A DNA stretch of 22,257 nt from a virus, in IMG/VR virus record IMGVR_UViG_3300008740_000054, positions 1-22,257 of that record; one strand, 5' to 3'. Of the stretch, positions 3,303-22,257 are shown in pieces (the first letter of the stretch is position 1; the number at the start of each line of letters is the position of its first letter). Both the position numbers and the translations under genes were made by a program. The notes beneath the pieces were generated by a model. The model was not told where the DNA came from and ran no database searches. It worked only from the letters and a program-made list of their open reading frames with translations.

Positions 3303-3590
3303 ATGACTATACCAGTACATAGAGATACAGATTCACGTGTTTGTGGAGCATCTACAACTGTTGCAGGTAATACAACTGTATTTGCTAATAATTTATTAGT
3401 ATCAGTTGATAGTGATCCAAACAGTCATGGTGGAGGATCTTTATCAGCAACAAGTAATGCTGTTTTCGCCAATAATAAATTAGTAGTGCATAATGCACCT
3501 GATTCAGCTTCACCAGACGCATTGTGTCCTATTCCACCGCATTGTGGGCCAGATACTTCACAAGGGTCACCTAATGTATTCACGGGATAA
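3303..3590 (+). CDS. PAAR-domain spike-tip protein
   Basis: A 95-aa protein of PAAR type, the cone that sharpens the tip of the gp5/VgrG beta-helix; the T4 counterpart is gp5.4. Two copies of the hairpin core are visible: TVFANNLLVSVDSDPNSHGG near residues 25-44 and AVFANNKLVVHNAPDSAS near 53-70. Conserved-looking His and Cys residues (C14, H42, H63, C75, H80, C81) could provide the metal site known from PAAR structures; which of them bind metal is inferred. The segment PIPPHCGPDT near 76-85 matches the usual Pro/His/Cys-rich end of the fold. The length is normal for a lone PAAR protein with no toxin extension. It sits between spike and wedge genes, as expected for a tail-tip component. Confidence 0.88.
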   Translation: MTIPVHRDTDSRVCGASTTVAGNTTVFANNLLVSVDSDPNSHGGGSLSATSNAVFANNKLVVHNAPDSASPDALCPIPPHCGPDTSQGSPNVFTG

Positions 3591-4106: not shown

Positions 4107-4217
4107 ATGATAGCAAGTTTTGTATATACAGCGTCAGATAGTTATATTACTACAACAATAACCCATACCGATGGAACAGTTCATACGGTTGTTAAACCTA
4201 AACCTAAAGGAAAATAA
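4107..4217 (+). CDS. 36-aa micro-protein upstream of gp6
   Basis: Unrecognised small protein. It begins MIASFVYTASDSYITTTITH and ends in a basic tail VVKPKPKGK. The body alternates Thr, Tyr, Ile, Val and His, suggesting a beta-hairpin (a strand, THTDGT as a turn, then VHTVV as a second strand). No membrane segment or signal peptide. Support for reality: a good AGGA 7 nt upstream, filling of almost the whole gap between gp25 and gp6, and a stop that overlaps the gp6 ATG by one base (TAATG), the same junction style as gp6 to the next gene. Possible roles are a small baseplate accessory piece or a leader peptide that couples ribosomes onto gp6; neither is shown by the sequence. Confidence 0.65.
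   Translation: MIASFVYTASDSYITTTITHTDGTVHTVVKPKPKGK
4206..4211 (+). promoter_or_regulatory. Shine-Dalgarno for gp6
   Basis: AAAGGA inside the last codons of the micro-gene, 5 nt before the gp6 ATG at 4217. It supports that start, so gp6 can be initiated directly as well as by ribosomes finishing the micro-gene. Confidence 0.6.
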
Positions 4218-7200
4218 TGTCATCTACAAATAGACAAAATAGATTGTTATTAACAGAAGATTGGGAAAGAGTTTATCAATCTTATAGAAACGCAGAATTT
4301 AAAAGTTACGATTTTGATACAATTCGTAGAACTCTTATTAATTACTTAAGACAAAATTATCCAGAAGATTTTAACGATTATATAGAATCAAGTGAGTATC
4401 TTGCATTAATAGATATGATTGCTTTCTTAGGTCAAAATATTGCTTTTAGAATAGATTTAAATGCAAGAGATAACTTTTTAGAATTGTCAGAACGTAGAGA
4501 ATCAATTTTAAGATTAGCTAGACTATTAAGTTATAATGCTAGAAGAAATCAAGCGGCGAATGGAATTCTCAAAATAGATACAGTTACTACTACAGAAAAT
4601 ATAATAGATAGTAATAACTTAAACTTGTCAGGACAAACTGTTACTTGGAATGATCCTGGTAATGTTAATTGGTATGAACAATTTATAAAAGTTTTAAATT
4701 CTGCATTACCAATTAATGAAAAATTTGGAAAACCTACTAAAAAAGATACAATAGATGGCATACCTACAAATACATATAGATTTAATTCTATAGGACTTGA
4801 AGTTCCAGTTTTTAATTATTCAAAAAATGTAGATGGTAGAAATGCTGATTTTGAAATAGTATCAACTACAACAGAAAATTCATCTATAATAGAAGAACCA
4901 CCATTAGCCGGTAGAGCAGTGTCTATGATTCATAGAGATGACGGTAAAGGTAGTGGTAGTAATAATACTGGATTTTTTATGCATTTCAGACAAGGTGTAA
5001 TGGATGTAGGTAATTTTAATGTTACTACTCCAAGTTCTAATCAAGCAATTAATATTGATGCTACAAATATTAATGATACAGATGTTTGGTTATATTCTAC
5101 AAATACACTTGGTATTGAAACTGCTCTTTGGACAAAACTTTCTGCAACAGAAGGAAATAATGTAGTTTACAATAGTACAATTAAATCAATTAAAAACATT
5201 TATTCTGCAATAACTAAAACAGATGATAGAGTAACGTTACAATTTTCTGATGGAACATTTGGAAATTTACCTCAAGGAACATTTAAAGTTTATTATAGAA
5301 CAAGTGATAATAGATCATTTAGAATAGTTCCAGATGATATGCAAAATGTTGAAATAGATATAGATTATGTTAGTGAAAATGGAAAAAGTGAAGTATTAAC
5401 TTTAACACTAGCTCTAAAATATACTGTAGATAATGCAACTTCAAGTGAAGAAAATTCAAGTATTCGTGCTAATGCACCTTCTACATATTATACACAAAAC
5501 AGAATGATTACAGGAGAAGATTATAATATTTCTCCATTAGCAGTTAATCAAGAAATTTTAAAAGTTAAATCAGTAAACAGAGTATCTAGTGGTGTGTCTA
5601 GATATTTTGATTTAATTGATAGTACTGGAAAATATAGTAATACTAATTTATATGGTAATGATGGAATAATTTATAAAGAAGAATTAGATGATTTAGGTAC
5701 ATTTATTTTTACTACAAGAACAGATATTGAAGGAAATATTATTAATACAATAGAACCAGGATTGTCAACTAAAAGAGTTTATAATTTTTATACTGATAAA
5801 TTTCCAAAAATTTTATTAACAGATATTAACCCAGTATGGACTCAAGTAACTAAAGCTACAAATCAAAGTACAGGTAATTTACAAGACGCAAATTCAACAA
5901 AATATCAAGTAGGAACATATACAGCAAGTCAATTAAAATATATTGAAGCTGGTGCTCTTTGTAAATTTGAAGCTCCTACAGGATATCATTTTATGTCCGA
6001 TGGAACATTAATGGCAGGTGCGTCTGACCATGCAGGAGCATCTACTTATAAATGGACAGGAGTAGTTAGTGTTTCTACAGATGGTACAACCGATCTTGCA
6101 GATGGTTCAGGTGCAATTAAATTTAATGATGTTATACCAAGTACTGCAATATTAACACAAATTATTCCTAAATTTAACAAGTATCTAAGTTCTGATGTTA
6201 AAACTCAAATTATTGATCAAATATTTGCGTATAAAACTTTTGGATTAAGATATGACTTATCAACTAGAAAATGGAAACTTGTAGATGAAAATAATTTAAA
6301 TCTTTTTGGTGCGTTTAGTACAGGAAAAACAGGAGATACTAGTAATGCACAATTAGATGCAAGTTGGCTTCTTAAATTTACTAACAATGGAGAAACGTAT
6401 ACAATGACGTCAAGAGGTATGCGTTATGTATTTGAAAGTGATAAAGAAATTAGATTCTTTTATGATAGTGCAGATAGAAATTTTGATTATAAATCAGGAA
6501 AAATATTACAAGACAGAATTTCTGTATTAAGCATAAACACTGCTCCAGATGTAATAACACCTATGAATAATGAAGTTGCATTTGATATTACAAAAGAATA
6601 TAGAAATACAGATGGCTATGTAGACAGTAAAAAAATAGAATTAACGCATTATGATTCAGATCAAGATGGTATTGTAGATAACCCTACTGCATTTGATGAT
6701 ATTGTTGCTTCTTCTGTAAATCCTTCTACAAAATATATTTTCCAAAAGAAATATACTTCTAATAATATAGAAGAATGGAGATATATTAATGCTACTACAG
6801 AACTTATTTTTGTAAAACAAAATAATAGCTCTATAGGAGCCTATAGTACCTATACTGATGATAGCATAATTTATTTGATAGATGATGATGCATTTAAAAT
6901 AGTAAATGGTACTAATAATACACTTACAGATACAACAAATTATAAAGTTCATGTAGGTCGAGACAAACTTAAATTTCAATATGTACATACTGTAGATGGT
7001 AATACACGATTAGATGCTAGTTCAACTAATATTATGGATTTGTATATGGTGACTAAAACATTTGATACAAACTTTAGACAATGGTTAAATGGAACAATTA
7101 CTACAAAACCTTTACCACCTAGTAGTGATGCATTGTATACTAGCTATAGCACACAATTAAATTCTATAAAATCAATTAGTGATGAAATTATATATCATAC

Positions 7201-7660
7201 TGTAAAATATAAAATTTTATTTGGATCTCAAGCTGAAACAGATTTACAAGCTTCATTTAAAATTGTTAAAAATGCAGAAGAAGTTACAAATGATAGTGAT
7301 ATCAAAAGTAGAGTATTAACAGCTATTGGAGAATTCTTTTCATTAGATAATTGGGATTTTGGAGAAACATTTTATTTCTCAGAATTGAGTACATATGTAA
7401 TGAATGAATTAGCACCAGATATTTCAACTTTCATCATTGTGCCTAATGAATCTACACAAAGTTTTGGTAGTCTTTATGAAGTAAAATCAGAAAATGATGA
7501 AATCTTTGTTAGTGGAGCAACCTTAGACAATATAGAAATCATAGATGCCGTGACAGCGGCTAAAATTAAAGCATCTGGCAAAGTTGTGTCATCTACATCC
7601 TCAACCGGTACTGGAGTGACTAGTAATACAACTGGGACCAGCACTGGAAGTGGATACTAA
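4217..7660 (+). CDS. 6: Baseplate wedge protein gp6
   Basis: Core wedge subunit whose dimers form the inner ring of the T4-like baseplate and bind gp25, gp53 and gp7. Residues about 5-115 are strongly gp6-like: RQNRLLLTEDWERVYQSYRN, then ESSEYLALIDMIAFLGQNIA and ARDNFLELSERRESILRLAR. A second family block near 419 reads NAPSTYYTQNRMITGEDYNI. The C-terminal block near 1040-1085 includes DNWDFGETFYFSELSTYVMN and then DISTFIIVPNESTQSFGSLY, as in gp6/baseplate-J ends. Between them lies a long middle segment (about 500-960), so the protein is 1147 aa against 660 in T4. Within it DSDQDGIVDN (813-822) looks like a calcium-binding Asp loop. The last about 27 residues are a Ser/Thr/Gly tail. The start overlaps the micro-gene stop by one base, and the stop overlaps the next ATG in the same way. 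Identity is very sure; the job of the added middle is unknown. Confidence 0.95.
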   Translation: MSSTNRQNRLLLTEDWERVYQSYRNAEFKSYDFDTIRRTLINYLRQNYPEDFNDYIESSEYLALIDMIAFLGQNIAFRIDLNARDNFLELSERRESILRLARLLSYNARRNQAANGILKIDTVTTTENIIDSNNLNLSGQTVTWNDPGNVNWYEQFIKVLNSALPINEKFGKPTKKDTIDGIPTNTYRFNSIGLEVPVFNYSKNVDGRNADFEIVSTTTENSSIIEEPPLAGRAVSMIHRDDGKGSGSNNTGFFMHFRQGVMDVGNFNVTTPSSNQAINIDATNINDTDVWLYSTNTLGIETALWTKLSATEGNNVVYNSTIKSIKNIYSAITKTDDRVTLQFSDGTFGNLPQGTFKVYYRTSDNRSFRIVPDDMQNVEIDIDYVSENGKSEVLTLTLALKYTVDNATSSEENSSIRANAPSTYYTQNRMITGEDYNISPLAVNQEILKVKSVNRVSSGVSRYFDLIDSTGKYSNTNLYGNDGIIYKEELDDLGTFIFTTRTDIEGNIINTIEPGLSTKRVYNFYTDKFPKILLTDINPVWTQVTKATNQSTGNLQDANSTKYQVGTYTASQLKYIEAGALCKFEAPTGYHFMSDGTLMAGASDHAGASTYKWTGVVSVSTDGTTDLADGSGAIKFNDVIPSTAILTQIIPKFNKYLSSDVKTQIIDQIFAYKTFGLRYDLSTRKWKLVDENNLNLFGAFSTGKTGDTSNAQLDASWLLKFTNNGETYTMTSRGMRYVFESDKEIRFFYDSADRNFDYKSGKILQDRISVLSINTAPDVITPMNNEVAFDITKEYRNTDGYVDSKKIELTHYDSDQDGIVDNPTAFDDIVASSVNPSTKYIFQKKYTSNNIEEWRYINATTELIFVKQNNSSIGAYSTYTDDSIIYLIDDDAFKIVNGTNNTLTDTTNYKVHVGRDKLKFQYVHTVDGNTRLDASSTNIMDLYMVTKTFDTNFRQWLNGTITTKPLPPSSDALYTSYSTQLNSIKSISDEIIYHTVKYKILFGSQAETDLQASFKIVKNAEEVTNDSDIKSRVLTAIGEFFSLDNWDFGETFYFSELSTYVMNELAPDISTFIIVPNESTQSFGSLYEVKSENDEIFVSGATLDNIEIIDAVTAAKIKASGKVVSSTSSTGTGVTSNTTGTSTGSGY

Positions 7661-10600
7661 TGGCATACGATAAAGATCAAAAAGAATTTCCATTACCTAC
7701 AGGAGATGAGTCAAACTCTCAACGTAAGACGTCTGAGTTTTTGCCTAAATATTTTAGAACACCTGTAAATGAAAAATTCCTTCATAGTACTTTAGATCAA
7801 TTATTATCTCCTGGTTCAGTAGAAAAGTTAACTGCTTATTATGGTAGAAAATCTAGTAAAGCACATACTACTAGTGATGTTTATGTACCTGAAGTTTCAA
7901 CTGATAGGGAAAATTATAAATTAGAACCTTCTACAATAGTTAAAGATGATTTAGAACAAACTGTATTTCATAAAGATTATATTGACTATATTAATCAAAT
8001 TAAAGCATTAGGTGGTAATGCAGATGATCATAGTATTCTTAATAAACAAGAATTCTATGCTTGGGCTCCACATATTTGTTGGGATAAGTTTTATAATTTT
8101 AGAGAATATTATTGGATGCCTTATGGTCCTCTAACTATTTCAATTGCCGGACAACAACAAAATATTACAAGTACCTATACTGTAGAAGTTAAAAATAATG
8201 TAGATAGCTATGCGTATTTGTTTACACCTGACGGATTAACTCAAAATCCAAATTTAAAATTATATAGAGGTCAAACTTATATTTTTGATGTATCTACAGC
8301 TGGTTTACCTTTTACAATTAAAACTGTTAGATCATTAAGTGATGACTATCTTTATACTAACGGTGTTTCAGCACAAAAAGTAGAATCAGGATTAGTTGCT
8401 TTTCAAGTTCCAGAATCAGCTCCAGATTTATTGTATTATGGTGCAAGTAATGACATTAATGTATTTGGAGAATTAAGAATTCATAATATAAGTGAAAATA
8501 CTTACATAAACGTAGATACAGATGTTATAGGTAAAAAAACTTATACTCTTACTGATGGAACAGAACTTTCAAATGGAATGAAGGTTCATTTTACTGGTAA
8601 TGTAACTCCAACAAAATATGCATCGGATGATTGGTATGTTGAGGGTGTAGGTACTGCTATTCAATTAATAAATGAAAAAGATTTAGAAATTTCAAGCATT
8701 TATTCTCAAACTTTTGACGTTCCATTTGATACACAAAAATTTGACAGAGTAGGTTTTGGAACAGCTACAACTTATGCAATTGCAAAAGACTATGTTGTAA
8801 TTAATAAAGGATCTTTAGATAAAAATCCTTGGTCACGTTATAATAGATGGACTCATAAATCAGTAATAGAATCAAGTGCAAAAGTTAATCAAGAAATTCC
8901 TTCATTTGATGAAAGTTTAAGAGCTAAACGTCCTATTATAGAATTTGAAGCGGGATTAAAATTACATGAATACGGAACTAAAGCTAAAGATAGTATTGAC
9001 TTAATAGATACAGCAACAACAGATGTAATGTCAACTATTGAAGGTTCTATAGGATACTATGTAGATGGAATTTTGCTTGTAGATGGTATGCGAGTATTAT
9101 TTACTGCTGATACAGATTTAACTGTTAATAATAAAATTTATACTGTAAAAATTATAACAATAACTTCGAATGGTGTTGCTACAAAACAAATTGCTCTTCA
9201 AGAAGCAACAGATACTACACCAAATACTAATGATGTTGTTTTAATTAAAAATGGAACAAAAAACATTGGTAAAATGTATTATTATGATGGTTCAAAATGG
9301 AAAATAACACAAACAAAAACTAAAGTAAATCAATCTCCATTATTTGATTTATTTGATAGCAATGGTGTAAGTTATGCAAATACAACAACATATGCAAGTA
9401 CAAATTTTCCTGGAAATAAAATTTTTAGTTATAAAGAAGGAACAGGAACTAATGATACAGAATTAGGATTTCCTTTAACATATCAAAGTGTCACTAATAT
9501 GGGAGACATTGTTTTTAATTTTAATTTAATAAATGAAACATTTTCTTATCAAACAGCAGATACATTAACAACAATTGATACTAATTCGGGATTGTTAAGA
9601 AAATATTCTGATTTAGCTACTTTTAAAGTTATATCTGGCTGGGAAACTGCAGATGTTAAAAGCAGTCAAAGAGTTATTAGACAATATGATGTGTCTACGC
9701 AAGTAAATGATTTTGCAGTAGATGTATATGAAAGAAGTGGCGATATAAATGATTTAAATATTAAAGTTTTTGTTAATCATAAAATTAAAAGAGATCCAAT
9801 TGATTATACTATTAATAGAATTAATGGTATTGCATATATTAGATTTATAAAAGATTTAGTAGCAGGTGATATAGTTATTTTAAAAACTAGAAGTGCTACA
9901 AAGAAAAATGCAAATGGACATTATGAATTTCCTAAAAATCTAGAATCTAATCCATTAAACAACAAAGTATCTACGTTTACTTTAGGACAAGTAGGAGATC
10001 ACGTTAATTCAATTGTGGAAGAAGTTCCAGGATTTATTGGAGTTTCACCGGGTAGTAATAATTTAAGAGATTTAGGTATTATTTCTAAATATGGTAGAAA
10101 ATTTTTACAGCATTCAGGATTAACAAATCTTGCTATATATCATCTTTGCAACAAAGAGAATAATATAGTTAAAGCAATAAGATATTCTCAAAATGAATAT
10201 AGTAAATTTAAAAGACAATTTATAGAACAAGCTAAAAATTTAGGAATGGATGGCACACCAGCTAATATGGTGGATGAAGTTCTTAGAAGAATTAATAAAG
10301 ATAAAACTAAAAGTATGCCTTTTTACTTTACCGACATGGCGGGTTCAGGTGGTTCTAAAAAAACATCAATTACAGTTGGAGATCCAGGTAATCCATATTA
10401 CGCATTAACAAATGTATTTTCATTAAGTGAATTAAGTGATAAGTCTGTATTAGTTTATAAAAATGATGTACAATTATTACATGATACTGATTATGTGTTT
10501 AATAGTGAAGGTTTTATTCAAATAAAAACAACTTTACAGAAAAATGATAAACTTGCTATTGTAGAATATGACACAACAAATGGTTCATATATTCCTGCAA

Positions 10601-13600
10601 CTCCAACTAAATTAGGTTTATATCCTAAATCTATACCTTCATTATATAATGATACTACGGCATTGACTCCAATTAATGTAATACAAGGACATGATGGTAG
10701 TATAGAAGTAGCTTACAATGATTATAGAGATGATATATTATTAGAATTAGAAAAAAGAATTTATAATAATCTTAAAGTTGCTTATGATCAAGAAGTATTT
10801 GGTCTTCATGATTTTATTCCAGGACATTATAGAAAAACAGATTATTCTTTAGATGCTATTAACAAGAGTTTATTAGTAGACTTTTCTAATTGGTTAAGTT
10901 TTGTAGGCAATATTGACTATACAGAAAATACATATCAAGAAATCCATGGTAGTAATTCACTTGTTTTTAATTATGGATCTATGTCTAGTTATGATAGTAA
11001 ACCACTATTAGGTTGGTGGAGAGGAATTTATAAACAAGCATATGATACAGATAGACCACATAGCCATCCTTGGGAAATGTTGGGTTTTGCAGAAAAACCA
11101 ACTTGGTTTGATACTGTTTATGGATCGGCTCCTTATACTAGTGACAACTTAATTTTATGGCAAGATTTACAAGATGGTGCTATTCGAGAACCTAATAAAA
11201 ATGTTGTAATTAAAGACAATTATAAAAGACCTGACTTACTTAAACATATACCTGTTAATTCTTTAGGCCTTTTAATAAGTCCACACGATAGTAATTTTTC
11301 ACAAGAATATGTTGCTCATTTAACTAGAGATCCATTTAAATTTGGTGATCACGCACCAGTAGAAAATGCATGGCGAAGAAGTTCTGATTATCCTTTTGCT
11401 GTTATGACATCTTGGATATTAAATCAACCTAGTCATGCTATTACAGTAGGTTGGGATAGATCAAGAGTTATAAGAAATACTGCAAAACAACTTGTATATA
11501 AAGATACAGGATCAAGAATTAAACTAGCTGATCTTAAATTTCCAAATTCTATTGCCGATGAAAATAAAGTTTTAACAGCAGGGTTTGTAAATTATATTTA
11601 CGAATATGTTGAAACAGATTTATTAACAAATTATTCTAATTATAGAGATAATGTTAAAAAAATTATTAATCAATTAGCATTTAAAGTTCGTGGTTATACT
11701 AAAAAAGACAAATTTAAATTACTATTAGATAGTAGAACTCCTTTAAACACTAGTAACGTATTTGTTCCTGAGGAAAATTATGATATAATTCTTAATACAA
11801 GTTCCCCTATAGATGTAGTAACTTATAGTGGAATAATTATAGAAAAATTAGCGGCAGGATTTACAATTAAAGGTTATGATAAAAATTCTCCAACTTTAAA
11901 ATATTTTGCTCCTATTAAAAAACAATCTGATGCTGTTATTAGAATAGGGGGTGTGAGTGCTTCTTATGTTAATTGGGGAGAAAATAAAAGATATGATGTA
12001 GGAATGATTGCCAAATATGGTGATGATTATTATTCTACAAAAGATCAACATATATCTAGTACAACATTTGAAGGATCAAATTTTATTAAATTACAAGAAT
12101 TACCTATTGAAGGAGGAGGTTCAGCATACTTACGTACTAATTTTGAAAGCACTGTTTCAGAAATTGCATATGGTTCTTTATTCAGAGAAATTCAAGATGT
12201 ATTTGATTTTATTCTTGGTTATGGAAAATATCTTGAGTCTTTAGGATTTGTATTTGATGATTTTAATAGAGATGTAGGAGCAGTTACTAATTGGCAATTA
12301 AGTGCTAAAGAATTTTTATATTGGACAACACAGGGTTGGGCGGAAGGCTCAGTAATATCTTTAAGTCCATTAGCTAATAAATTAAAATTAAAAACAAACT
12401 ATTGTGTGGGAGATAATGTATTTGATAATTTTTATGATTATACATTATTTAAAGAAGATGGCACTAAACTTGATAAAGAATTTGTAAGAGTAGTAAAACA
12501 GTATAATGATTATGAAATAATAACAAAAAATACTGTCAATGGAATTTATTATGCAAAAATTCCATTAGTACAAAAAGAACACGTAGTACTAATTGATAAT
12601 AAAACAATATTCAATGATATAATTTATGATGTCGAGTCTGGATATAGACAAGATAGATTGAAAGTTCTTGGATATATTACAGCAAACTGGACTGGTGGAT
12701 TAAATGTTCCAGGGTTCATATATGATCAAGCTAATGTAATCGAATGGTCGCCTTATACTGATTATGTAATGAGTGATATTGTAAAACATAAAGAATTTTA
12801 TTATACTGCTAAAAGTAAGATAAAAGGCAGTGCAAAGTTTATTGATAAAGATTGGGATAGATTAGATAATAAACCTGTAGCAGACTTATTTCCTAATTTT
12901 GAATATAAAACTAATCAATTCGCAGACTTTTTTGATTTGGATACAGATAATTTTGATTCAACCCAACAAAGAATGGCTCAACATTTAATAGGTTATCAAA
13001 AAAGACAATTTTTACAAAATATTATTAATGATGATGTTTCACAATATAAATTTTATCAAGGATATATTCAAGAAAAAGGAACTAAAAATGTATTAACTAA
13101 ACTATTTGATGCATTAACATCTGCAGATAAAGAAAGTATAGATTTTTATGAAGAGTGGGCAATTAGAAAAGGACATTATGGTGTAAGTCAAGGATTTGAT
13201 GAAGTAGAGTATACTTTAGATGATAGCAAATTTAGATCTAATCCACAACCTTTTGAATTAACAAATACTATAGATCCTTTAGCTACTGATTTAGTTATTA
13301 GACAAAAAGATAGTGATGTATATCTTAAACCTGAAAATTATACGCATAAACCTTTCCCAACAAAATATGAAAGTATACCGTATTTGCCAACTGCTGGATA
13401 TGTAGATCCTAGTGATGTTAAATTTATTGTAGCAAAATATGATGACATATTAAATTTAGATGTAGCTGTATTAAAACAAGGACATTATGTATGGGTAGGA
13501 AATTATAAAAATGATTGGGAAGTATTTAAATTTTCTAATACTCAAGCCAAATTAAGTAAAATAGAAAAGTCAGGTGATTTAATTTTAGTTACTACACAAA

Positions 13601-16600
13601 ATACTGCAAATGTAACTGTTGGAGAAATTTTTGCAATACGTGTAGGAACTGCAACACATATTTTAAAAGCAAATAAAGTAGAATTAAATGTTATTACCTG
13701 TGATAAAAAAGATGGTGTTTCTGCTGTAGATCCTGCAACAGGATACGTAAGTCAATTTAAAACATCTAGAATTGCAAGTATTACTGATGTAAATTCAAAA
13801 ATAATGGATACAGGTCTCCAGAATAATGAAAAATTCTGGGTTGATAAAAACGATAATAATAAATGGTCCGTATTGAATAATAGTTTTGTATATAATTCAC
13901 ATCAAGAAATTTCTAATCCTAATAATATAGCAAATACAGAATTTGGTAAAGTATTAGCTAGTAATGATGCAAATAACATTTTAGTTGTTGGTGCACCAAA
14001 TGATTCAGATGGTAGAGCTTTTGTTTATAAAAGAGGAGGAGATAATTCAACATTTAATTTATTTCAAGTTCTAGAATCGCCTCCACAAGATCCTGCATTA
14101 AACAAATTAGATGTATATGATGCTGGTGCAAAATTTGGATCAAGCGTTGCAATAAGTCCAGATGGAAAATATATTTTAGTAGGTGCTCCACAAGCCTCTA
14201 ATGTTAGAACTTATTATAAAGGAAATTATGCTGTAGGAACTCCATATACAATAGAAGATATTGTAAAATACAAAGAACAATTGTGGAAAGTTGTAAATCC
14301 TATATTACCTGAAGATCCTTCAGTAGATTTTACAACATTTGATAGTCATGTATTTGCTAAAGAATCAACATATGATTCTGTAACAGGAAATTATACACCA
14401 TTAACACAAATAATTTTAGGAAATTATATTTTTACAAATGCTACTACAGATCATTTATTAATTAGAGCATCATTAGATCAATACCAAGGTACTAAAATAG
14501 GAGACAAATTACAATTAGCTTGGAATAAATGGAATACTTTTGTTCCTCCATCAGGAACAGCATACGAACCATTTAATGGTTATAATGCTGATGTTACTAA
14601 TGCACTTCAAGGTGAACAAACAATTACAGAAAAAGTAGATGAAATATTAAGCATAGATCAAACTCTTAATGATTTAACAGTAGGTGATGCTATTGCCACT
14701 GACAGTGCAGATGGTACAGTAGCTTGGGTAAACAAAGTAGGTACTCAGTCTTTAATTTATTTGAAAGATGTTAAAGGTAATTTTTCAGCTACAGGTGATT
14801 TATTATTAGGATCTATAAATGTTGGAACATACCAGCGTGTATTCCAAGAAGATATAAACTATTTAGGTGGCTGGTGGAAAATTAGCATAGGTGCAACAGT
14901 TAATAATTGGCCATATATTTCAGAAACAAATCCATATCTAGTAATACATGATATTATTAGACAAGGAATTACTAGAACAGCATCATCATATTATAATGTT
15001 TTAGCCGCAACTCAAAATGCAGTTTTACCAGGTGTTCCAAGAACATCTGAAATAGGAATTTTATCTTATTACAAAACTTATAGTATTGCAGGACAACCAG
15101 TGTTCCAAGGTTTAGTTACTGATCAAAGATTCTTTTTTAGATTAAGCACTGCATTTAATACTAAAGTTGTTGGAAATACTATTAATGGGTGGTTAAACAC
15201 AATAAGAGATTCAAATAATACAGTGTTTGATCCAAGTGTAATGGGATTAAACTTTAGCGATATTAATAAAGAGCTTACAATAAACGGTATTTGGAATGGT
15301 TACATAACTGTAGATGCTGAAGCAGATAATTTAGGTAACTTTTATATACCAACAGTAGGCAGTACTGTTAGAGATCAAACGACAATGAAAACTGCTGAAG
15401 TTACTTTTGTTAAAACAATCGACTTTAACAAAATACAATTATTTTTAAAAGATGCCACAGGTGCTTTCAAAAAAGGACTTGATGCAGGTGAATCAAGTGA
15501 CATTTATTTAATAGGTACTCCAGATAGAAAAATTGGAACTTTAAGAGACGCAAGATTAGATGTTAATGGTCAAAGTGGGCCATACTTTGTATTTGATTCT
15601 GGTAAAACATTAATTTCTACAACTAATACAGATATAGAAGTAAGACATTTTGATAAAGAATATTGGTTTTATGATGAACAAACATTAGATGGTGTAGCTA
15701 GATCGGCTAACATTCCTGGAAGTACTAATAAAGATTATCTTCAAGTGTATAATATTTCTGCTGGAGAAGGAACACAAAGCGGTAATGTTAATGAAGGTGC
15801 ATATTCAGTTTATGAAATAGGAACAAATAATTTATTTGCTCATGCAGGAACATTTATAGTACCTGATACTAAAGATAATTTAAAAGTAGGTAGTAAAATA
15901 GAAATAAGAAAAGTAGGAGATGAAACTGTTGCGTATGTAGGAGCTTCGGGAGATTTATCATCAGCTACTCCTGGGAAAATTTATTTTGTTAAAAGAAGTA
16001 CTACTAAAAATTGGGCACTTTCAACAAATCCGTTGTATATGGGCGTATTTGATCCAGCTCTTTCATATGCTACAGGTGAATATACAATTTATAATTCAGA
16101 ATTATATAAAGCAAAAACAAATCTTGTTGCAGGTGCATGGAATTCAAGTTATTGGGAAAAACAAAGTGCAGGTACAGATTATTTAGGATATATTCCTAAT
16201 GATTCAGGAATAACATTAGAAGGAGATTCTACTCTTAACCAAAATAATTTAGTAATGTTTGGTGGACAATTTGATATTAATTCTACAGGAACAATTCTTG
16301 TAACTAATTTATTATACAGTACTGATGCACAAAAAGTTGCTGTATATAGATTACAAGAAGGACATTATACATATTCACAAACAATTACATCACCTGAAGA
16401 TTCATCTCCTAATATAAATTTTGCGAATAGCGTAGCTATTTCAGAAGATGGAAGTATGTTAGCTATTGGTAGTCCTTTAAAAGACTTTGCTAATGCTGTT
16501 GATGCCGGAGTAGTTTATACATATCTACAAGCAAGTGGTGTTTATTCATTGAATCAAAATTTAAGAAGTCCTGATAGTGAAAATTCAGAAAACTTTGGAC

Positions 16601-19600
16601 ACCAATTAGGATTTGATGGAAATACATTGGCAGTTACAAGTCTTAAAGGAGATATAACAGTTACCACTGCATTTGATACAGAAACTACAATATTTGATAC
16701 TGGAGCAACAACATTTTATAAAGTAATGTCAGATAGTGGTGCAGTACATTTATTTGAAAGATCAGGTAATACTTTATTATATGCTGAAAAATTTGTATAC
16801 ACAAATGATGGTACTGTAGAATTTGGACGTAATACATTAATAAATGATAATCATGTTTATATAGGTTTACCTACACTTACATTGGCTAATAGTAATAAAG
16901 GAACAGTTGTTAACTTTAGAAAAACTAAAGGAAAATCAAGTTGGATGCAAACAGTAGAAGGTGCTGACCATGTAGAAGTTGATAAAATTAAAAGTGTATT
17001 CATTTATAACAAGAAAAATAATTCTGTTGTTGCTAATTTAGATTATATTGATCCTGTATTAGGAAAAATTGCAGGTACAGCCGAACAAGAATTATATTAT
17101 AAAACACATTATGATCCAGCAATTTATAATTTAGGAACTTCAGCAGTAACAGTAGATACAAATAATCACTGGGCAGAAGAACAAGTAGGAAGACTTTGGT
17201 GGGATTTAAGCACGGTAAGATATTATTATCCTTATCAAGGCAATATTATATTCAATAATAATCATTGGAATAAACAATTTATTGGTTCATCTGTAGATGT
17301 ATATGAATGGGTAGAAACAATTTATAAGCCTAGTGTATGGACAGAACTTGCATCTAGTAACGAAGGATTATCTTTAGGAATAAGTGGTACACCTAAATAT
17401 GATGATACTGTATATGTTACTAGAAATACTTACGACAAAATTGCTCAAACTACAAAACCTAAATATTATTATTGGGTTAAAAATAAACAAACTACACCAG
17501 ATGTAGAATTTAGAAGTTTAAGTTCGTTAGCAGTTTCTAAACTTATAGATGATCCTAAAGGACAAGGTTACAAATATATTACGTTCTTTGATTCAAATAA
17601 ATTTGCGTTAGTTAATTGTGAATCATTATTATCAAATTCAGATGCTATTCTTAATGTTCGTTATTGGACAATAGAAAATAAAGAACTTAATATCCATAAT
17701 GAATATCAAGTTATGACTGAAGGATTGTCTACTAGTAAACCTTCTTCGGAAATAGAAAAAGTTTGGCATAATAGTTTAATAGGTTATGACGAACAAGGAA
17801 ATGCTGTACCTGATCCAAATTTAAGTAACAAATTAAAGTATGGAACTTTATATAAACCTAGACAAAGTTGGTTTGATAATCATCAAGAAGCATTAAAACA
17901 ATTAGTAGAAAGAGTTAATTCAGTATTGAAACTTAATTTAATTGTAGATAAAGTGGACTTAACTAACTTATCTAAAGCAGAAACACAGCCTACAACAAAT
18001 ACTAAACTTTTTGATAAAACTGTAGACGTAGTAGGAGATTTAGCTTTTGTAGGAACAAATACAATTAAGAAAGCAGAACTATTACCAACAATTGTAAATG
18101 GTAAAATTACTGATGTAACTATTTTAAGTAAAGGTAAAGGTTATACAACTGTACCTACATTTGAAATTTCAGGAGACAGCGGAAGTGGTGCTGTAATAGA
18201 ATTAACAATTGATGCTTTAGGACAAGTTGATACTGCAATTGTAAAAGTTAATGGAGAAGGATATACATCAAATACAAAAGTTGTTGTTAGACCTTACAGT
18301 GTACTTGTAAAAAGTGATGCAGAGCTTGGTGGTAAATGGGCAATATATGGTTATGATACAAGTTTAAGTACTTGGAGTAGAACAGCTTCACAAAAATATA
18401 ATACTGATCTTTATTGGTCATATATTGATTGGTATGACATAGGATATAATCAATTTACATCAATAGATTATACTGTTAGTCAATCATATTTGTTAGATTC
18501 TTTAAGTGATGAAATAGGAGATATTGTAAAAATAGAAAATGTAGGCACAGGTGGTTGGCTATTATTAGAAAAAATAGATAATCAACTTAATGTAGATTAT
18601 ACTGTAAATTATAAAACTATTGGTAGAGAAAATGGAACAATTGCATTTAAAAATACTTTATATGATTTTGGTTCTAATACTGTAGGTTATGCATCAACTA
18701 GTTATGATACTGTATTATATGATAGACAGCCTGTTCAAGAAACAAGAATAATATTAGAAGCTTTAAGAGATAAAATTTTTATTAATGATTTAGAAATATA
18801 TTATAACGAACTTTTCTTTGCTAGTTTAAGATATGCATTAAGCGAAAATAAATTAACAGATTGGGCATTTAAAACAAGTTTCATCAAAGTAAAACATAAT
18901 GCAGGTGATCTTAAACAAAAAGCAACTTATAAAAATGATAATCTTTCTAACTTCGAAGATTATATTAAAGAAGTTAAACCATACAAAACTAATATTAGAG
19001 AATATGTAAGTTCTTACGAAAAAGTAATACCATCAAGTTCAGTTATAACTGATTTTGACTTACCAGCTAGATATGATGATGATAATCAAATAACACCTAG
19101 TTCAGCAAAACTTGTAGGGACTGCTTTAACTGGAATAGATACAATTACAAGTTATCCTGATAAACATTGGTTAGAAAATGTAGGATTTAAGATTGTATCA
19201 TTTAATATAGGAGAAAAAGGTAGTGGTTATATTACTCCACCAATAGTTTCAATAACTGGCGGAGGAGGTTCTGGTGCTACAGCTCAAGCATATATTAGTG
19301 GAGGCAAAGTAACTTCAGTTATAATTCTTAAAGAAGGATCAGGATATTTAACAGCACCTACGGTAACTTTACAAGGAGGAATTAAAGATGTAACTACAGG
19401 AATAGTTGCTAAAGTTAGTGCTGTGTTAGGTAAGTCTTTAGTTAAAGCAACTCATCTTACTGTTAAGTTTGACAGAACATCAGGAACATATTTAATAACA
19501 TCATTAGCAAGAACAGAAACGTTTGCAGGAAATAATTCTGTATTAGATTATTATTTAAAATGGCCGTTAGATTTAAGAAGAAATACAATCAAAGTAACTG

Positions 19601-22257
19601 TTAATAGTATTGAAAGTTTATCAAGCGAATACACTTATACTAATAAATTAGATACAACTAAAGATTATAATAGATATATAGGACATATTAAATTTATTTC
19701 ACCACCTGCTAATCTTCATGCTATTAAAATAGAGTACATGATAGACGCATCTAAATTACAAGCACAAGATAGAATTAATCTTTTCTATACACCTACATCA
19801 GGAATGCCAGGTAAAGAATTAGCTCAGATTTTAGATGGAATAGATTATGGTGGAGTTGAAGTAAGAAGTTTAGGATTTGATACTGCATCTGGTTGGGATA
19901 CAGATTCATATATGGCAGGTTCTTGGGATACCTATGATGCAACTTTTGAAGATGAAATTTTAAAAATGGATGGTAGTACTAATTCACTTACATTAAGTAA
20001 AGTACTAGAAGATGGAACAGTTTATAACATTTATAAAAATGCAATAAGAATAGATGATCCTAACTATGGAACAGGAAATACTGTAACAAATAAAAATGCA
20101 ATGATGCAAAGTGTTACAGGTGATGGTTCAACAATGACTATTACATTTGATACTGTACCAACAGTAGCTGGTGATGTAATTGTAGTTAGAAAATCTACTA
20201 GTGATGGTAGTTTCTTACCAGATCCAGAAACTTATGATACTTTATTGGCAGGTGGTGATTTAGCTTATTCATCTGCAACAGGATTAAAAGCAGAAGACAT
20301 TATAGTAGAAGGAGATGATTTTGTATCTCCTACAACTTCAAAAGGTCCAGAAGAATTTGTACCAGGACAAGTACTTGATACTTTAGACATTCAAGTATTT
20401 GACAAAGGTGGAGAATCAGGAAGTAGAATTAGTAGTTACAATCATATAGGAGACGGTGTTACTACAAATTATCCATTTAGTGAATATCCACAAAGTTCAG
20501 ATGCCGTATTTGTTTCAGTAGGTAATGTTTTACAAGAATCTAATACTTACGTTGTAGACTATCCAAATAAATTATTGAAATTTAATAGTGCTCCTATATT
20601 AAATTCTAAAATTAATTTTGTAACTATGAGTAATAATGGAGAAAAAGTTTTAGACTTTGATACATTTACAGGAGATGGAAGTACTTTAGATTATGTAACA
20701 AGAGCAACATGGATTGATAATAGTATAAACACGTTTGTAAGAGTAAATGGTTTATCTGTTCCATACACTATTTTAAAATCAGACAGTTCTTATGCTGTAC
20801 AAGATAAAGTTGTTGTAAGATTTACAGATGCCCCTCCGGCAGATTCAGTTGTTAATATAGTTGTATACGCAAGTGCTAGTCAAACATTTAGTGAAGTTAC
20901 TGAAGATAATTTTACAGGTGATGGAAGTACGGCTTCATTCCAATTAAGTCAAACACCATTTAATCAAAAACCTTTATCATTTAATACAGTTGTTAGAGTT
21001 GGTAGTGAAATTTTAAATGCAGGATTTACTAAAACATTTACATTAGATAATAATAGAGAATATGAATTTGAAACTTGGCAAGAAGTTCCAGGATCAATAC
21101 TTCCTGCAGATGTAAGAGCATTTTTAAATGGAGTAGAATTAGTACAAGGACAACAATATACTTGGAATTCAGGAACTACTAGTATAACACTTATAACAGG
21201 AGTAGGTGTTCCAGGCGATACTTTAAGAGTGTTTGCAATGAACAATGGTGAATATACTTTAAATGAAACAACAGGTATGATTACATTTAGTACTGCACCA
21301 GCTCAAGGATTAACTATTTCAGTTTACCAATTTAGTAATCATGACGTAGCAAAAATAGAAAGAATTAATTATGATGTCGTTGCAAGATTAACTGTAACTG
21401 TTGGTACAGATGATTATTATATGTACAAACAATTAACTAATGGACGTATTAAATTAAGACAATTAGCCGAAGATGCTCAATATGTTTGGGTAACTCTTAA
21501 TGGAGAATTGTTAGCTCCTAGTGTAGATTACAAAGTTACAAATGATCAGATGTTTGTAAAAATAAACAGATCATTGGCTACAAATGATGTTATAGATATT
21601 ATACACTTTACAGCACCTAAATTTGTATCTAAATTTGGTTATAGACAATTTAAAGATATGATGAATAAAACTCATTACAAACGTTTAGGTAATACTAACA
21701 AATATCAATTAGCAACTTCGCTTAAATGGTCAGATCAAGATTTAGAATTAACAGATGCAACTGGTATAACAGAACCTAGTATAGCAAATAATCTTCCTGG
21801 AGTATTGTTTATTGATGGTGAAAGATTAGAATATTTTGTTAAAGTAGGCAATAAACTTTCACAACTTAGACGAGGAACGTATGGAACAGGAGTAAAAAAT
21901 ATTCATGTTGTAGGTGAAGAAGTATTAGATCAAGGACAATTTCAAACTGTACCTTATAAAGATGAATTTTTAACTGAACAATATACAGCAGATGGTAGTA
22001 CTAATGCAATTACTATTGGATTTACTCCTAAATCTGCTAACGAATTTGAACTATTTGTAGGTGGTAAAAGGATGAGAAAGAATGATATTTCTATATATGA
22101 CCCAACACAAGGTCAAGATAGTCCTGAAGCAGATGTTACTTCCCCTGCAGAATTTACTGTAGATGGTATAAGCCCAGTTGTAACACTTGCAACAACACCT
22201 ATAGCTGGCACAAAAATAATAACTATAAGAAAACAAGGTAAAAAATGGCAATCTGGC
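7660..22257 (+). CDS. Giant baseplate/tail-fibre-like structural protein (3' partial)
   Basis: An unbroken frame of at least 4866 codons that leaves the window without a stop, so the full protein is longer. It starts in a TAATG overlap with gp6, with a weak GGAAG at 7646-7650. The N-terminus (MAYDKDQKEFPLPTGDESNS) has no signal peptide. Conserved-looking blocks are EFYAWAPHICWDKFYNFREY (near 132), MRVLF (near 480), RDDILLELEKRIYNNLKVAY (near 1023), and GWWRGIYKQAYDTDRPHSHP (near 1118). Later come four W/Y-rich binding-like modules, a split FG-GAP-type propeller (about 2093-3095), two Gly-rich beta repeats (about 3480-3545 and 3843-3907) and DGST repeats from about 4104 to the end; these are listed separately. 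Position matches gp7 of T4 (1032 aa), and the N-terminal third may hold the gp7 role, joining gp6 to outer wedge parts. The rest looks like display and adhesion architecture. No enzyme motif recognised. Gene reality is certain; the wedge-plus-fibre role is inferred. Confidence 0.9.
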   Translation, partial: MAYDKDQKEFPLPTGDESNSQRKTSEFLPKYFRTPVNEKFLHSTLDQLLSPGSVEKLTAYYGRKSSKAHTTSDVYVPEVSTDRENYKLEPSTIVKDDLEQTVFHKDYIDYINQIKALGGNADDHSILNKQEFYAWAPHICWDKFYNFREYYWMPYGPLTISIAGQQQNITSTYTVEVKNNVDSYAYLFTPDGLTQNPNLKLYRGQTYIFDVSTAGLPFTIKTVRSLSDDYLYTNGVSAQKVESGLVAFQVPESAPDLLYYGASNDINVFGELRIHNISENTYINVDTDVIGKKTYTLTDGTELSNGMKVHFTGNVTPTKYASDDWYVEGVGTAIQLINEKDLEISSIYSQTFDVPFDTQKFDRVGFGTATTYAIAKDYVVINKGSLDKNPWSRYNRWTHKSVIESSAKVNQEIPSFDESLRAKRPIIEFEAGLKLHEYGTKAKDSIDLIDTATTDVMSTIEGSIGYYVDGILLVDGMRVLFTADTDLTVNNKIYTVKIITITSNGVATKQIALQEATDTTPNTNDVVLIKNGTKNIGKMYYYDGSKWKITQTKTKVNQSPLFDLFDSNGVSYANTTTYASTNFPGNKIFSYKEGTGTNDTELGFPLTYQSVTNMGDIVFNFNLINETFSYQTADTLTTIDTNSGLLRKYSDLATFKVISGWETADVKSSQRVIRQYDVSTQVNDFAVDVYERSGDINDLNIKVFVNHKIKRDPIDYTINRINGIAYIRFIKDLVAGDIVILKTRSATKKNANGHYEFPKNLESNPLNNKVSTFTLGQVGDHVNSIVEEVPGFIGVSPGSNNLRDLGIISKYGRKFLQHSGLTNLAIYHLCNKENNIVKAIRYSQNEYSKFKRQFIEQAKNLGMDGTPANMVDEVLRRINKDKTKSMPFYFTDMAGSGGSKKTSITVGDPGNPYYALTNVFSLSELSDKSVLVYKNDVQLLHDTDYVFNSEGFIQIKTTLQKNDKLAIVEYDTTNGSYIPATPTKLGLYPKSIPSLYNDTTALTPINVIQGHDGSIEVAYNDYRDDILLELEKRIYNNLKVAYDQEVFGLHDFIPGHYRKTDYSLDAINKSLLVDFSNWLSFVGNIDYTENTYQEIHGSNSLVFNYGSMSSYDSKPLLGWWRGIYKQAYDTDRPHSHPWEMLGFAEKPTWFDTVYGSAPYTSDNLILWQDLQDGAIREPNKNVVIKDNYKRPDLLKHIPVNSLGLLISPHDSNFSQEYVAHLTRDPFKFGDHAPVENAWRRSSDYPFAVMTSWILNQPSHAITVGWDRSRVIRNTAKQLVYKDTGSRIKLADLKFPNSIADENKVLTAGFVNYIYEYVETDLLTNYSNYRDNVKKIINQLAFKVRGYTKKDKFKLLLDSRTPLNTSNVFVPEENYDIILNTSSPIDVVTYSGIIIEKLAAGFTIKGYDKNSPTLKYFAPIKKQSDAVIRIGGVSASYVNWGENKRYDVGMIAKYGDDYYSTKDQHISSTTFEGSNFIKLQELPIEGGGSAYLRTNFESTVSEIAYGSLFREIQDVFDFILGYGKYLESLGFVFDDFNRDVGAVTNWQLSAKEFLYWTTQGWAEGSVISLSPLANKLKLKTNYCVGDNVFDNFYDYTLFKEDGTKLDKEFVRVVKQYNDYEIITKNTVNGIYYAKIPLVQKEHVVLIDNKTIFNDIIYDVESGYRQDRLKVLGYITANWTGGLNVPGFIYDQANVIEWSPYTDYVMSDIVKHKEFYYTAKSKIKGSAKFIDKDWDRLDNKPVADLFPNFEYKTNQFADFFDLDTDNFDSTQQRMAQHLIGYQKRQFLQNIINDDVSQYKFYQGYIQEKGTKNVLTKLFDALTSADKESIDFYEEWAIRKGHYGVSQGFDEVEYTLDDSKFRSNPQPFELTNTIDPLATDLVIRQKDSDVYLKPENYTHKPFPTKYESIPYLPTAGYVDPSDVKFIVAKYDDILNLDVAVLKQGHYVWVGNYKNDWEVFKFSNTQAKLSKIEKSGDLILVTTQNTANVTVGEIFAIRVGTATHILKANKVELNVITCDKKDGVSAVDPATGYVSQFKTSRIASITDVNSKIMDTGLQNNEKFWVDKNDNNKWSVLNNSFVYNSHQEISNPNNIANTEFGKVLASNDANNILVVGAPNDSDGRAFVYKRGGDNSTFNLFQVLESPPQDPALNKLDVYDAGAKFGSSVAISPDGKYILVGAPQASNVRTYYKGNYAVGTPYTIEDIVKYKEQLWKVVNPILPEDPSVDFTTFDSHVFAKESTYDSVTGNYTPLTQIILGNYIFTNATTDHLLIRASLDQYQGTKIGDKLQLAWNKWNTFVPPSGTAYEPFNGYNADVTNALQGEQTITEKVDEILSIDQTLNDLTVGDAIATDSADGTVAWVNKVGTQSLIYLKDVKGNFSATGDLLLGSINVGTYQRVFQEDINYLGGWWKISIGATVNNWPYISETNPYLVIHDIIRQGITRTASSYYNVLAATQNAVLPGVPRTSEIGILSYYKTYSIAGQPVFQGLVTDQRFFFRLSTAFNTKVVGNTINGWLNTIRDSNNTVFDPSVMGLNFSDINKELTINGIWNGYITVDAEADNLGNFYIPTVGSTVRDQTTMKTAEVTFVKTIDFNKIQLFLKDATGAFKKGLDAGESSDIYLIGTPDRKIGTLRDARLDVNGQSGPYFVFDSGKTLISTTNTDIEVRHFDKEYWFYDEQTLDGVARSANIPGSTNKDYLQVYNISAGEGTQSGNVNEGAYSVYEIGTNNLFAHAGTFIVPDTKDNLKVGSKIEIRKVGDETVAYVGASGDLSSATPGKIYFVKRSTTKNWALSTNPLYMGVFDPALSYATGEYTIYNSELYKAKTNLVAGAWNSSYWEKQSAGTDYLGYIPNDSGITLEGDSTLNQNNLVMFGGQFDINSTGTILVTNLLYSTDAQKVAVYRLQEGHYTYSQTITSPEDSSPNINFANSVAISEDGSMLAIGSPLKDFANAVDAGVVYTYLQASGVYSLNQNLRSPDSENSENFGHQLGFDGNTLAVTSLKGDITVTTAFDTETTIFDTGATTFYKVMSDSGAVHLFERSGNTLLYAEKFVYTNDGTVEFGRNTLINDNHVYIGLPTLTLANSNKGTVVNFRKTKGKSSWMQTVEGADHVEVDKIKSVFIYNKKNNSVVANLDYIDPVLGKIAGTAEQELYYKTHYDPAIYNLGTSAVTVDTNNHWAEEQVGRLWWDLSTVRYYYPYQGNIIFNNNHWNKQFIGSSVDVYEWVETIYKPSVWTELASSNEGLSLGISGTPKYDDTVYVTRNTYDKIAQTTKPKYYYWVKNKQTTPDVEFRSLSSLAVSKLIDDPKGQGYKYITFFDSNKFALVNCESLLSNSDAILNVRYWTIENKELNIHNEYQVMTEGLSTSKPSSEIEKVWHNSLIGYDEQGNAVPDPNLSNKLKYGTLYKPRQSWFDNHQEALKQLVERVNSVLKLNLIVDKVDLTNLSKAETQPTTNTKLFDKTVDVVGDLAFVGTNTIKKAELLPTIVNGKITDVTILSKGKGYTTVPTFEISGDSGSGAVIELTIDALGQVDTAIVKVNGEGYTSNTKVVVRPYSVLVKSDAELGGKWAIYGYDTSLSTWSRTASQKYNTDLYWSYIDWYDIGYNQFTSIDYTVSQSYLLDSLSDEIGDIVKIENVGTGGWLLLEKIDNQLNVDYTVNYKTIGRENGTIAFKNTLYDFGSNTVGYASTSYDTVLYDRQPVQETRIILEALRDKIFINDLEIYYNELFFASLRYALSENKLTDWAFKTSFIKVKHNAGDLKQKATYKNDNLSNFEDYIKEVKPYKTNIREYVSSYEKVIPSSSVITDFDLPARYDDDNQITPSSAKLVGTALTGIDTITSYPDKHWLENVGFKIVSFNIGEKGSGYITPPIVSITGGGGSGATAQAYISGGKVTSVIILKEGSGYLTAPTVTLQGGIKDVTTGIVAKVSAVLGKSLVKATHLTVKFDRTSGTYLITSLARTETFAGNNSVLDYYLKWPLDLRRNTIKVTVNSIESLSSEYTYTNKLDTTKDYNRYIGHIKFISPPANLHAIKIEYMIDASKLQAQDRINLFYTPTSGMPGKELAQILDGIDYGGVEVRSLGFDTASGWDTDSYMAGSWDTYDATFEDEILKMDGSTNSLTLSKVLEDGTVYNIYKNAIRIDDPNYGTGNTVTNKNAMMQSVTGDGSTMTITFDTVPTVAGDVIVVRKSTSDGSFLPDPETYDTLLAGGDLAYSSATGLKAEDIIVEGDDFVSPTTSKGPEEFVPGQVLDTLDIQVFDKGGESGSRISSYNHIGDGVTTNYPFSEYPQSSDAVFVSVGNVLQESNTYVVDYPNKLLKFNSAPILNSKINFVTMSNNGEKVLDFDTFTGDGSTLDYVTRATWIDNSINTFVRVNGLSVPYTILKSDSSYAVQDKVVVRFTDAPPADSVVNIVVYASASQTFSEVTEDNFTGDGSTASFQLSQTPFNQKPLSFNTVVRVGSEILNAGFTKTFTLDNNREYEFETWQEVPGSILPADVRAFLNGVELVQGQQYTWNSGTTSITLITGVGVPGDTLRVFAMNNGEYTLNETTGMITFSTAPAQGLTISVYQFSNHDVAKIERINYDVVARLTVTVGTDDYYMYKQLTNGRIKLRQLAEDAQYVWVTLNGELLAPSVDYKVTNDQMFVKINRSLATNDVIDIIHFTAPKFVSKFGYRQFKDMMNKTHYKRLGNTNKYQLATSLKWSDQDLELTDATGITEPSIANNLPGVLFIDGERLEYFVKVGNKLSQLRRGTYGTGVKNIHVVGEEVLDQGQFQTVPYKDEFLTEQYTADGSTNAITIGFTPKSANEFELFVGGKRMRKNDISIYDPTQGQDSPEADVTSPAEFTVDGISPVVTLATTPIAGTKIITIRKQGKKWQSG
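11974..12093 (+). repeat. Carbohydrate-binding-like module 1 in the giant protein
   Basis: Residues about 1439-1478. The pattern is W-x6-Y-x3-x-I-x-x-Y-x-x-x-Y-Y, here WGENKRYDVGMIAKYGDDYY followed by STKD and FIKL. It resembles the short CBM5/12-type fold (aromatic, turn, xIVxYxxxxYxxx, late hydrophobic/aromatic). Similarity to the other three copies is visible by eye; sugar binding is inferred. Confidence 0.4.
12745..12864 (+). repeat. Carbohydrate-binding-like module 2 in the giant protein
   Basis: Residues about 1696-1735: WSPYTDYVMSDIVKHKEFYY, then TAK and a closing DKDWDRL. This is the clearest copy: leading Trp, Tyr six residues later, DIVK, paired aromatics, TAK, closing Trp, the same order of landmarks as CBM5/12-type modules. 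Function inferred. Confidence 0.45.
13936..14217 (+). other. First half of a split FG-GAP-type beta-propeller
   Basis: Residues about 2093-2186 of the giant protein hold two FG-GAP-like blades: EFGKVLASNDANNILVVGAP with GRAFVYKR, and KFGSSVAISPDGKYILVGAP with VRTYYK. The FG...S.DG...LVGAP...G.A.VY pattern is the integrin-alpha-type blade. Two blades cannot close a propeller; matching blades resume about 680 residues later. Confidence 0.7.
14221..14340 (+). repeat. Carbohydrate-binding-like module 3 in the giant protein
   Basis: Residues about 2188-2227: NYAVGTPYTIEDIVKYKEQL followed by WKVV and a closing Phe segment. It begins right after propeller blade 2. It shares Y-x3-DIVKY-x4-W with module 2 but has lost the leading Trp. 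Confidence 0.35.
16048..16161 (+). repeat. Carbohydrate-binding-like module 4 in the giant protein
   Basis: Residues about 2797-2834: FDPALSYATGEYTIYNSELY, then KAK, and a closing AWNSSYWEK. Close to the CBM5/12 landmark order (aromatic start, G, Y-N-x-x-L-Y-K-A-K, closing Trp). It lies just before blade motifs resume. Confidence 0.45.
16255..16960 (+). other. Second half of the split FG-GAP-type beta-propeller
   Basis: Residues about 2866-3100. Blades read by eye: GGQFDINSTGTILVTNLLYS with KVAVYRL; NFANSVAISEDGSMLAIGSP with GVVYTYL; NFGHQLGFDGNTLAVTSLKG with AVHLFER; EFGRNTLINDNHVYIGLPTL with GTVVNFRK. With the two earlier blades this gives about six, a plausible closed ring. Degenerate blades make the count uncertain. 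Confidence 0.65.
18097..18294 (+). repeat. Gly-rich beta repeat 1 in the giant protein
   Basis: Residues about 3480-3545: NGKITDVTILSKGKGYTTVP, then GDSGSGAVIELTID and a second half VKVNGEGYTSNTKVVV. The same GxGYxxxP...GSGA... plan recurs at 19186-19380. Such units are common in phage tail and fibre proteins. Confidence 0.6.
19186..19380 (+). repeat. Gly-rich beta repeat 2 in the giant protein
   Basis: Residues about 3843-3907: IGEKGSGYITPPIVSITGGG, then GSGATAQAYISGGKVTSVII and LKEGSGYLTAPTVTLQGG. A cleaner copy of the unit at 18097-18294, with two GSGYxTxP turns around a GSGATA core. Confidence 0.65.
19966..22257 (+). repeat. C-terminal DGST tail-fibre repeat array
   Basis: Repeated units that open with (T)GDGST or DGST and end with an xAPxxGxxIxVxxx strand. 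Openings are near 19966, 20116, 20446 (variant IGDGVT), 20668, 20914 and 21985, that is residues about 4104, 4153, 4263, 4337, 4419 and 4776. The three middle openings are 74 and 82 residues apart; other gaps are larger and hold degenerate units. Closing strands include FNSAPILNSKINFVTM, DAPPADSVVNIVVY, TAPAQGLTISVYQF and TPIAGTKIITIRK. This layout is typical of phage fibre beta-repeats. The array continues past the window edge. Confidence 0.65.

Follow-up and report, generated by a model that had tools for sequence, protein, structure and literature searches.

A giant protein encoded directly after gp6 in uncultured aquatic phages, with conserved cores of the RaK2-like family and a predicted integrin-alpha-type propeller between them

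In phage T4 the gene directly after gp6 encodes the baseplate protein gp7 (1032 aa), which, according to an excerpt of PMC3004832, is present in six copies per baseplate. Far longer proteins are encoded after gp6 in cyanophage isolates, among them P-SSM2 gp7 (5,195 aa) and the giants of P-TIM68 (4,307 aa), Bellamy (4,067 aa) and S-SRM01 (3,895 aa); S-SSM7 has a giant of 3,007 aa after gp6 and a second one of 3,001 aa two genes on. In S-WAM1, a protein of 6,737 aa (L059:3305-23518), larger than the one described here, lies directly after gp6. According to the accessible part of PMC7029224, pelagimyophages and cyanomyophages have no gp7, and VrlC takes its place there. Further giants, referred to below as RaK2-like, are known from jumbo phages and belong to PHROG 10938, a family to which PHROGs assigns the category head and packaging. 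Nine of them, with lengths of 3,313–4,555 aa, were considered here: CBB_236, RaK2 ORF070, 121Q gp582, PA5oct gp355, Atu_ph07 gp180, Phosso 294, SCTP-2 gp140, Vibrio phage 2.275 424 and XacN1 ORF325. Evidence from virions covers two of these relatives, CBB and PA5oct: CBB_236 was found in virions by mass spectrometry with 21 unique peptides and 7.72% coverage (PMC5259590, in the portion available), and the PA5oct gp355 record carries an ESI-MS/MS note. The Atu_ph07 gp180 gene lies within the CDS 170–215 cluster, which is described in an excerpt of PMC6102473, at the level of the cluster, as rich in virion proteins. Among the literature matches listed, there was no account of the giant family beyond isolate genome papers, and those listed for FG-GAP or integrin-like baseplates (those terms only) contained no paper on it. 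The original prediction for the locus analysed below had supposed that large proteins in this place might already be known in marine T4-like phages, and the cyanophage isolates bear this out; since giants after gp6 are known in both jumbo phages and cyanophages, neither size nor place is new.

The DNA analysed here, referred to as the window, is a stretch of 22,257 nt that constitutes the entire IMG/VR record IMGVR_UViG_3300008740_000054. Its first genes, which, like all features described below, are on the plus strand, follow the order of a T4-type baseplate operon: a virion structural protein (55..1764; phrog_11190), a gp5/VgrG-like hub protein (1766..3298) and, after a PAAR-like tip protein (3303..3590; phrog_281, E 2e-4), a gp25-like wedge protein (3611..4057), the hub and gp25-like proteins being recognised by domain and profile matches, and a gp6-like baseplate wedge gene (4217..7660). 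The earlier identification of the last as gp6 is supported by its match to phrog_10646 (E=1e-291) and by a profile match of 98.5% (E 4e-15) to cyanophage gp6; its match to T4 gp6 is weak (26%), whereas cyanophage gp6 matches T4 gp6 strongly. The gp6 stop overlaps the start of the giant in the sequence TAATG, as it does in all six relatives inspected, so that the giant occupies, as had been proposed, the place of gp7 directly after gp6, and its translation may be coupled to that of gp6. It is from this gene order that the putative placement of the giant in the baseplate is drawn.

The giant open frame starts with an ATG and is stop-free up to the end of the window (7660..22257), extending over 4866 codons or 14,598 of 22,257 nt (65.6%), in agreement with the original figure of more than 65%. 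By chance, one stop per ~11 codons would be expected at the base composition of the frame, and for 4866 open codons log10 P is approximately -199. As the window is the entire record, the end of the frame at 22257 is the end of the contig; extension to the stop, a check that had been suggested, was achieved with the IMG/VR contig L010 (71,680 nt), in which 17,170 of 17,195 shared nt are identical to the window (99.85%; 25 differences). There, the frame reaches its stop 24 codons beyond the window end, giving a protein of 4,890 aa, of which 24 residues are therefore absent from the window, and a predicted mass of ~547 kDa (544 kDa computed for the portion in the window). The giant of a second contig, L011, also has 4,890 aa and shares 94% amino acid identity with that of the window over a 1,000-aa query. 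When the window and L011 were compared in ten blocks, the third codon position was the most frequent site of change in all ten, with a share above one half in eight, a bias expected if the frame is translated throughout. Among 66 relatives, defined as contigs with both the giant start and core 2 (see below) and including near-duplicates, the frame is complete in 38 (4,452–5,294 aa), runs off the contig in 26 and is broken in two, L036 by a single frameshift near 12256-12267 and L037 by a single stop near 8993. L034, a 5'-truncated contig additional to the 66, has one in-frame stop at 4739-4741; this codon is a site that differs from its near-identical relative L032. We conclude that the window contains one uninterrupted giant gene.

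The giant matches PHROG 10938 with E=0 and 1096.9 bits, and in a profile search with the protein cut into five slices, slices 1, 2 and 4 match this family, in contrast to slices 3 and 5. With a 1,000-aa piece of core 1 as query, 58 phage records were matched, nine of which were read in detail. All nine isolate giants match that of the window in at least two segments (blastp), XacN1 being the weakest (E 2e-11); what they share with it is giant size and related stretches in both cores, with 22–34% identity. The gene preceding the giant matches the gp6 of the window in eight of the nine, with SCTP-2 as the exception. The slice searches, likewise proposed at the outset, returned this one giant family and small modules rather than several separate known genes, and by sequence comparison the giant is a single family, not a product of joined genes. 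At 4890 aa the protein of the window is longer than any of the nine, and it differs from them in the region between its cores; for the RaK2-like forms the predicted mass is ~370 kDa.

An alignment of 20 giants revealed a conserved-variable-conserved layout. Core 1 (aa 1-1920; 7660..13419) matches phrog_10938 and, partly or wholly, the nine isolate giants, and core 2 (aa 3085-3830; 16912..19149) is defined by the alignment and by isolate matches. Within core 1, a region at aa ~165-290 (8152..8529), presumably cupredoxin-like, is also present in a P-TIM68 protein of 814 aa that bears the annotation tail fibre connector, and is nearly absent from CBB and 121Q. A CBM5/12-like module of chitin-binding type (aa 1432-1485; 11953..12114) was detected by sequence and structure searches, and a second small module (aa ~1690-1737; 12727..12870) resembles 8fqc_P1 of the phage Milano baseplate (Z 8.3, 45 residues). 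Towards the C-terminus lie two GxGY beta modules, the first (aa ~3480-3545; 18097..18294) common to the cyanophage giants after gp6 and the second (aa ~3845-3930; 19192..19449) identified by sequence comparison, followed by a C-terminal region (aa 4104-4866; 19969..22257) in which six DG(S/V)T motifs resemble the starts of beta repeats. Sequence searches of PDB with the whole giant, aa 1-960 or aa 3081-4200 gave nothing up to E 1, and with the two middle stretches only weak matches (best E 0.016), mostly to chitin-binding domains. CBM-like modules are found in further phage proteins of the tail and baseplate as well; our guess is that those of the giant may bind glycan.

With the cyanophage giants, the protein of the window has in common its place, its size class, the GxGY modules and one C-terminal module. 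End-to-end homology with them was not found, and only short beta modules are shared; the same search for end-to-end kinship failed for VrlC, which does not match the conserved cores and scores (41%) only with a C-terminal stretch. In five of seven cyanophage giants the KGT motif is found among the N-terminal 250 residues, as against near residue 1800 in that of the window. A further segment (aa 4550-4849; 21307-22206) resembles a module of the cyanophage gp7 giants that, by eye, is situated near their N-terminus. From this resemblance, modules seem to be shuffled between giants.

The variable middle is where the giant of the window departs from its isolate homologues. Pfam FG-GAP_2 (PF14312) matches there with E 4.8e-14 and 52.7 bits against a cut-off of 23, and together with a structure model (pLDDT 88.6, pTM 0.72) it predicts an integrin-alpha-type beta-propeller at aa 2076-3084 (13885..16911), which as a model is well supported. 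The best fold match is integrin alphaM (7usm; Z 27.9, 346 residues, 3.1 A, within model residues 126-1134); WD40 and G-beta seven-bladed propellers come close to the integrins (Z ~26), so the choice of an integrin-type over a generic propeller rests on the FG-GAP repeats. Seven blades were counted by eye on the sequence, and the predicted model is a closed seven-bladed fold. The ~346 aligned residues are spread over a stretch of 1,009, from which we infer that the propeller is interrupted by inserts. In the alignment, judged by eye, the largest insert follows the second FG-GAP motif and begins in a CBM5/12-like module in blade 2 (aa 2188-2220; 14221..14319; Pfam E 3.6e-4, below the curated cut-off, blade assigned by eye). 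Next to it is a cassette of 463 residues (aa 2221-2683; 14320..15708), which direct comparison showed to be missing in L023, L024, L025 and L044. Another CBM5/12-like module is weakly indicated between blades 3 and 4 (aa ~2795-2840; 16042..16179; E 0.017 to a chitin-binding domain). The length of the middle is bimodal, 579–826 aa in 24 of the 89 contigs that span the region and 1,166–1,493 aa in the other 65, with none between; on a core-1 tree (86 rows, 73 different) the short form requires at least three changes, two of which are forced by well-supported branches.

In integrins, the alphaI domain is inserted between blades 2 and 3. The integrin alpha headpiece thus has in common with the window the same predicted propeller fold, FG-GAP repeats and an extra domain inserted near blade 2, a likeness of fold and repeat profile only; in contrast to it, the propeller of the window belongs to a phage protein, lacks the calcium-loop pattern D.[DN].[DN]G (DxDxDG-type loops) and yielded no I (VWA) domain in its insert in the Pfam search. 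Propeller profiles match every one of the 89 contigs that span the region; over the full set of 115 loci, many of which do not span it, the counts are 96 and 104. No match was obtained in the 16 isolate loci (T4, six from cyanophages and nine from jumbo phages; plus-strand frames, E 1e-3), FG-GAP was absent at E 0.1 from five isolate middles, and tblastn of the propeller region gave only weak matches, to two phage records (E 8e-4 and 5e-3). Propeller or FG-GAP proteins also appear in the viral structure library for uncultured Caudovirales phages, cyanophage S-TIM5, giant viruses and an Atu_ph07 'hemagglutinin', so that the fold as such is already known from viruses. What seems to be new is an integrin-alpha-type propeller between the two cores, present in all spanning relatives and, by profile search, in none of the nine isolate homologues, from which the window differs in this FG-GAP propeller with its cassette; the novelty lies in the combination of parts, not in length.

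Whether the cores derive from gp7 is a separate matter. T4 gp7, nearly five times shorter, has no significant sequence match to the giant: T4-type gp7 alone did not match any slice (best 0.9%). With combined or cyanophage-containing gp7 profiles, the best stretch of a whole-protein scan (79 windows) was aa ~1711-1926 at 5–27%, although for the combined profile two N-terminal windows (aa 1-200) scored 19.6 and 19.1 against 21.0 for the best. A deeper alignment of core 1 only gave aa 1711-1926 at 14–32% against cyanophage-containing profiles, the windows with the FYQ/KGT motif ranking at the top of 29 with scores of 30 against 14 and 25 against 13. This area includes a mostly helical stretch (aa 1749-1846; 12904..13197) with FYQGxIxxKGT at ~1798-1808, which is strongly conserved among relatives and is a possible counterpart of the gp7 KGT helix; its low model confidence (pLDDT <50) would be expected if it folds together with a partner. 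For comparison, four T4-type and five cyanophage gp7 sequences match each other at 97.5% (E 8e-12 over 36 columns). P-SSM2 gp7 (L053:6006-21593) and four other cyanophage giants carry the T4 gp7 FYxSKG motif near the N-terminus, despite the statement in the available part of PMC7029224 that cyanomyophages lack gp7. A structure search with the core model returned no chain named gp7 among the best 50 matches, in which small chitin-binding-like modules dominate, a result that excludes nothing. Kinship with T4 gp7 through this one helical stretch is suggestive only. Of the original idea that adhesion modules had been added to a gp7-like core, the part concerning the modules stands, as binding-type modules were found; the gp7-like core is only suggested, at 5–32% profile probability.

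Genes downstream of the giant were read in one near relative, the contig of L011, where the stop is followed by a 203-aa phrog_11259 protein, a collar-domain fibre protein and further structural genes, all separate. In the more distant relative G006 a protein with a gp9/10-N domain begins right at the end of the giant. A structural-type protein with a Peptidase_G2 autoproteolytic domain is encoded as a separate gene downstream of the giant in the L011 contig (L142:5038-6501), and a kumamolisin-like serine protease gene (Pro-kuma_activ and Peptidase_S8; L143:2032-3657, IMGVR_UViG_3300032240_000659) occurs after the giant among the tail genes of G006.

Several other explanations of the giant were weighed against these data. 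That assembly had joined separate genes might be suspected of any metagenome contig, the more so with a frame broken in two of 66 relatives and in L034; the same frame is however present in L010 and L011, it is complete in 38 of the 66, and homologous giants exist in nine isolate genomes, and we reject an artefact as practically negligible. The proposed fusion of wedge and fibre functions, in its widest form a polyprotein of gp7, gp8, gp9, gp10 and fibre functions, would account for the position after gp6 and for a length several times that of T4 gp7, and a few modules of the giant do recur in families that carry the label baseplate wedge or tail fibre. The gp8 profile was negative in all nine contigs, but so were the controls, and this does not show that gp8 is absent. 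Against fusion, the slices match the giant family and small modules, not gp8, gp9 or gp10, and the fibre-type genes are separate in the L011 contig (the collar fibre gene) and in G006 (the gp9/10-N protein, one of nine contigs), so that fibres are not fused into the giant where inspected; this part of the original prediction was not upheld, and we regard fusion as very improbable. A precursor cut into several mature proteins is improbable too, if slightly less so: the great length and the neighbouring Peptidase_G2 domain of the L011 contig would suit it, but Pfam detected no protease or self-cleavage domain at threshold in the giant.

A side fibre, whisker or other tail decoration, rather than a wedge component, would be in keeping with the beta-rich modules and carbohydrate-binding-like domains, and CBB has whiskers whose gene is given as unknown in the available part of PMC5259590. 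The gene order with gp25 and gp6, the overlap of the giant start with the gp6 stop and the two long conserved cores all speak against it, and it appears unlikely. A more serious contender, although we do not favour it, is a wedge component of RaK2-like and aquatic phages that is non-orthologous to T4 gp7 and fills its place or forms an extra layer. No slice matches T4-type gp7, the structure search with the core model named none (with the reservation given above), and the replacement of gp7 by VrlC, reported in the portion of PMC7029224 consulted, also points that way; on the other side, the FYQ/KGT windows came first in core 1 by a wide margin, the order gp25-gp6-giant equals that of P-SSM2 with gp7, and VrlC itself does not match the cores of the window. 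This alternative is compatible with most of the explanation that we prefer.

The explanation we consider probable is that the giant is one structural protein of the baseplate wedge and represents, in this aquatic lineage, the RaK2-like jumbo-phage giant encoded directly after gp6. A structural role is likely, and the best reading is a wedge protein in the place of gp7 with an acquired surface-binding head, for which host binding is predicted. The cores would lock into the wedge beside gp6, with the helical stretch 1749-1846 packing against gp6, and, by analogy with T4 gp7, six copies would ring the baseplate. The propeller and CBM-like modules would then extend outward and attach to glycan on the cell surface in the course of adsorption, and the cassette would change which surface is recognised; host binding and cassette-driven specificity are plausible predictions. 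A more far-reaching version, which we regard as somewhat doubtful, is that the wedge of an abundant, uncultured aquatic jumbo-like lineage has come to include an integrin-like head for adhesion. Blade 2 of its seven-bladed propeller would bear the removable cassette, beside modules of chitin-binding type, and exchange of this cassette could shift the host range while the machine stays untouched.

At least 597 IMG/VR stretches, near-duplicates included, encode a relative of core 1, and baseplates of this type may therefore be common in aquatic phages. Should the propeller be an adhesion head, the choice of receptor would be tied to the wedge itself, and the cassette would be a definable element with a putative role in host range.
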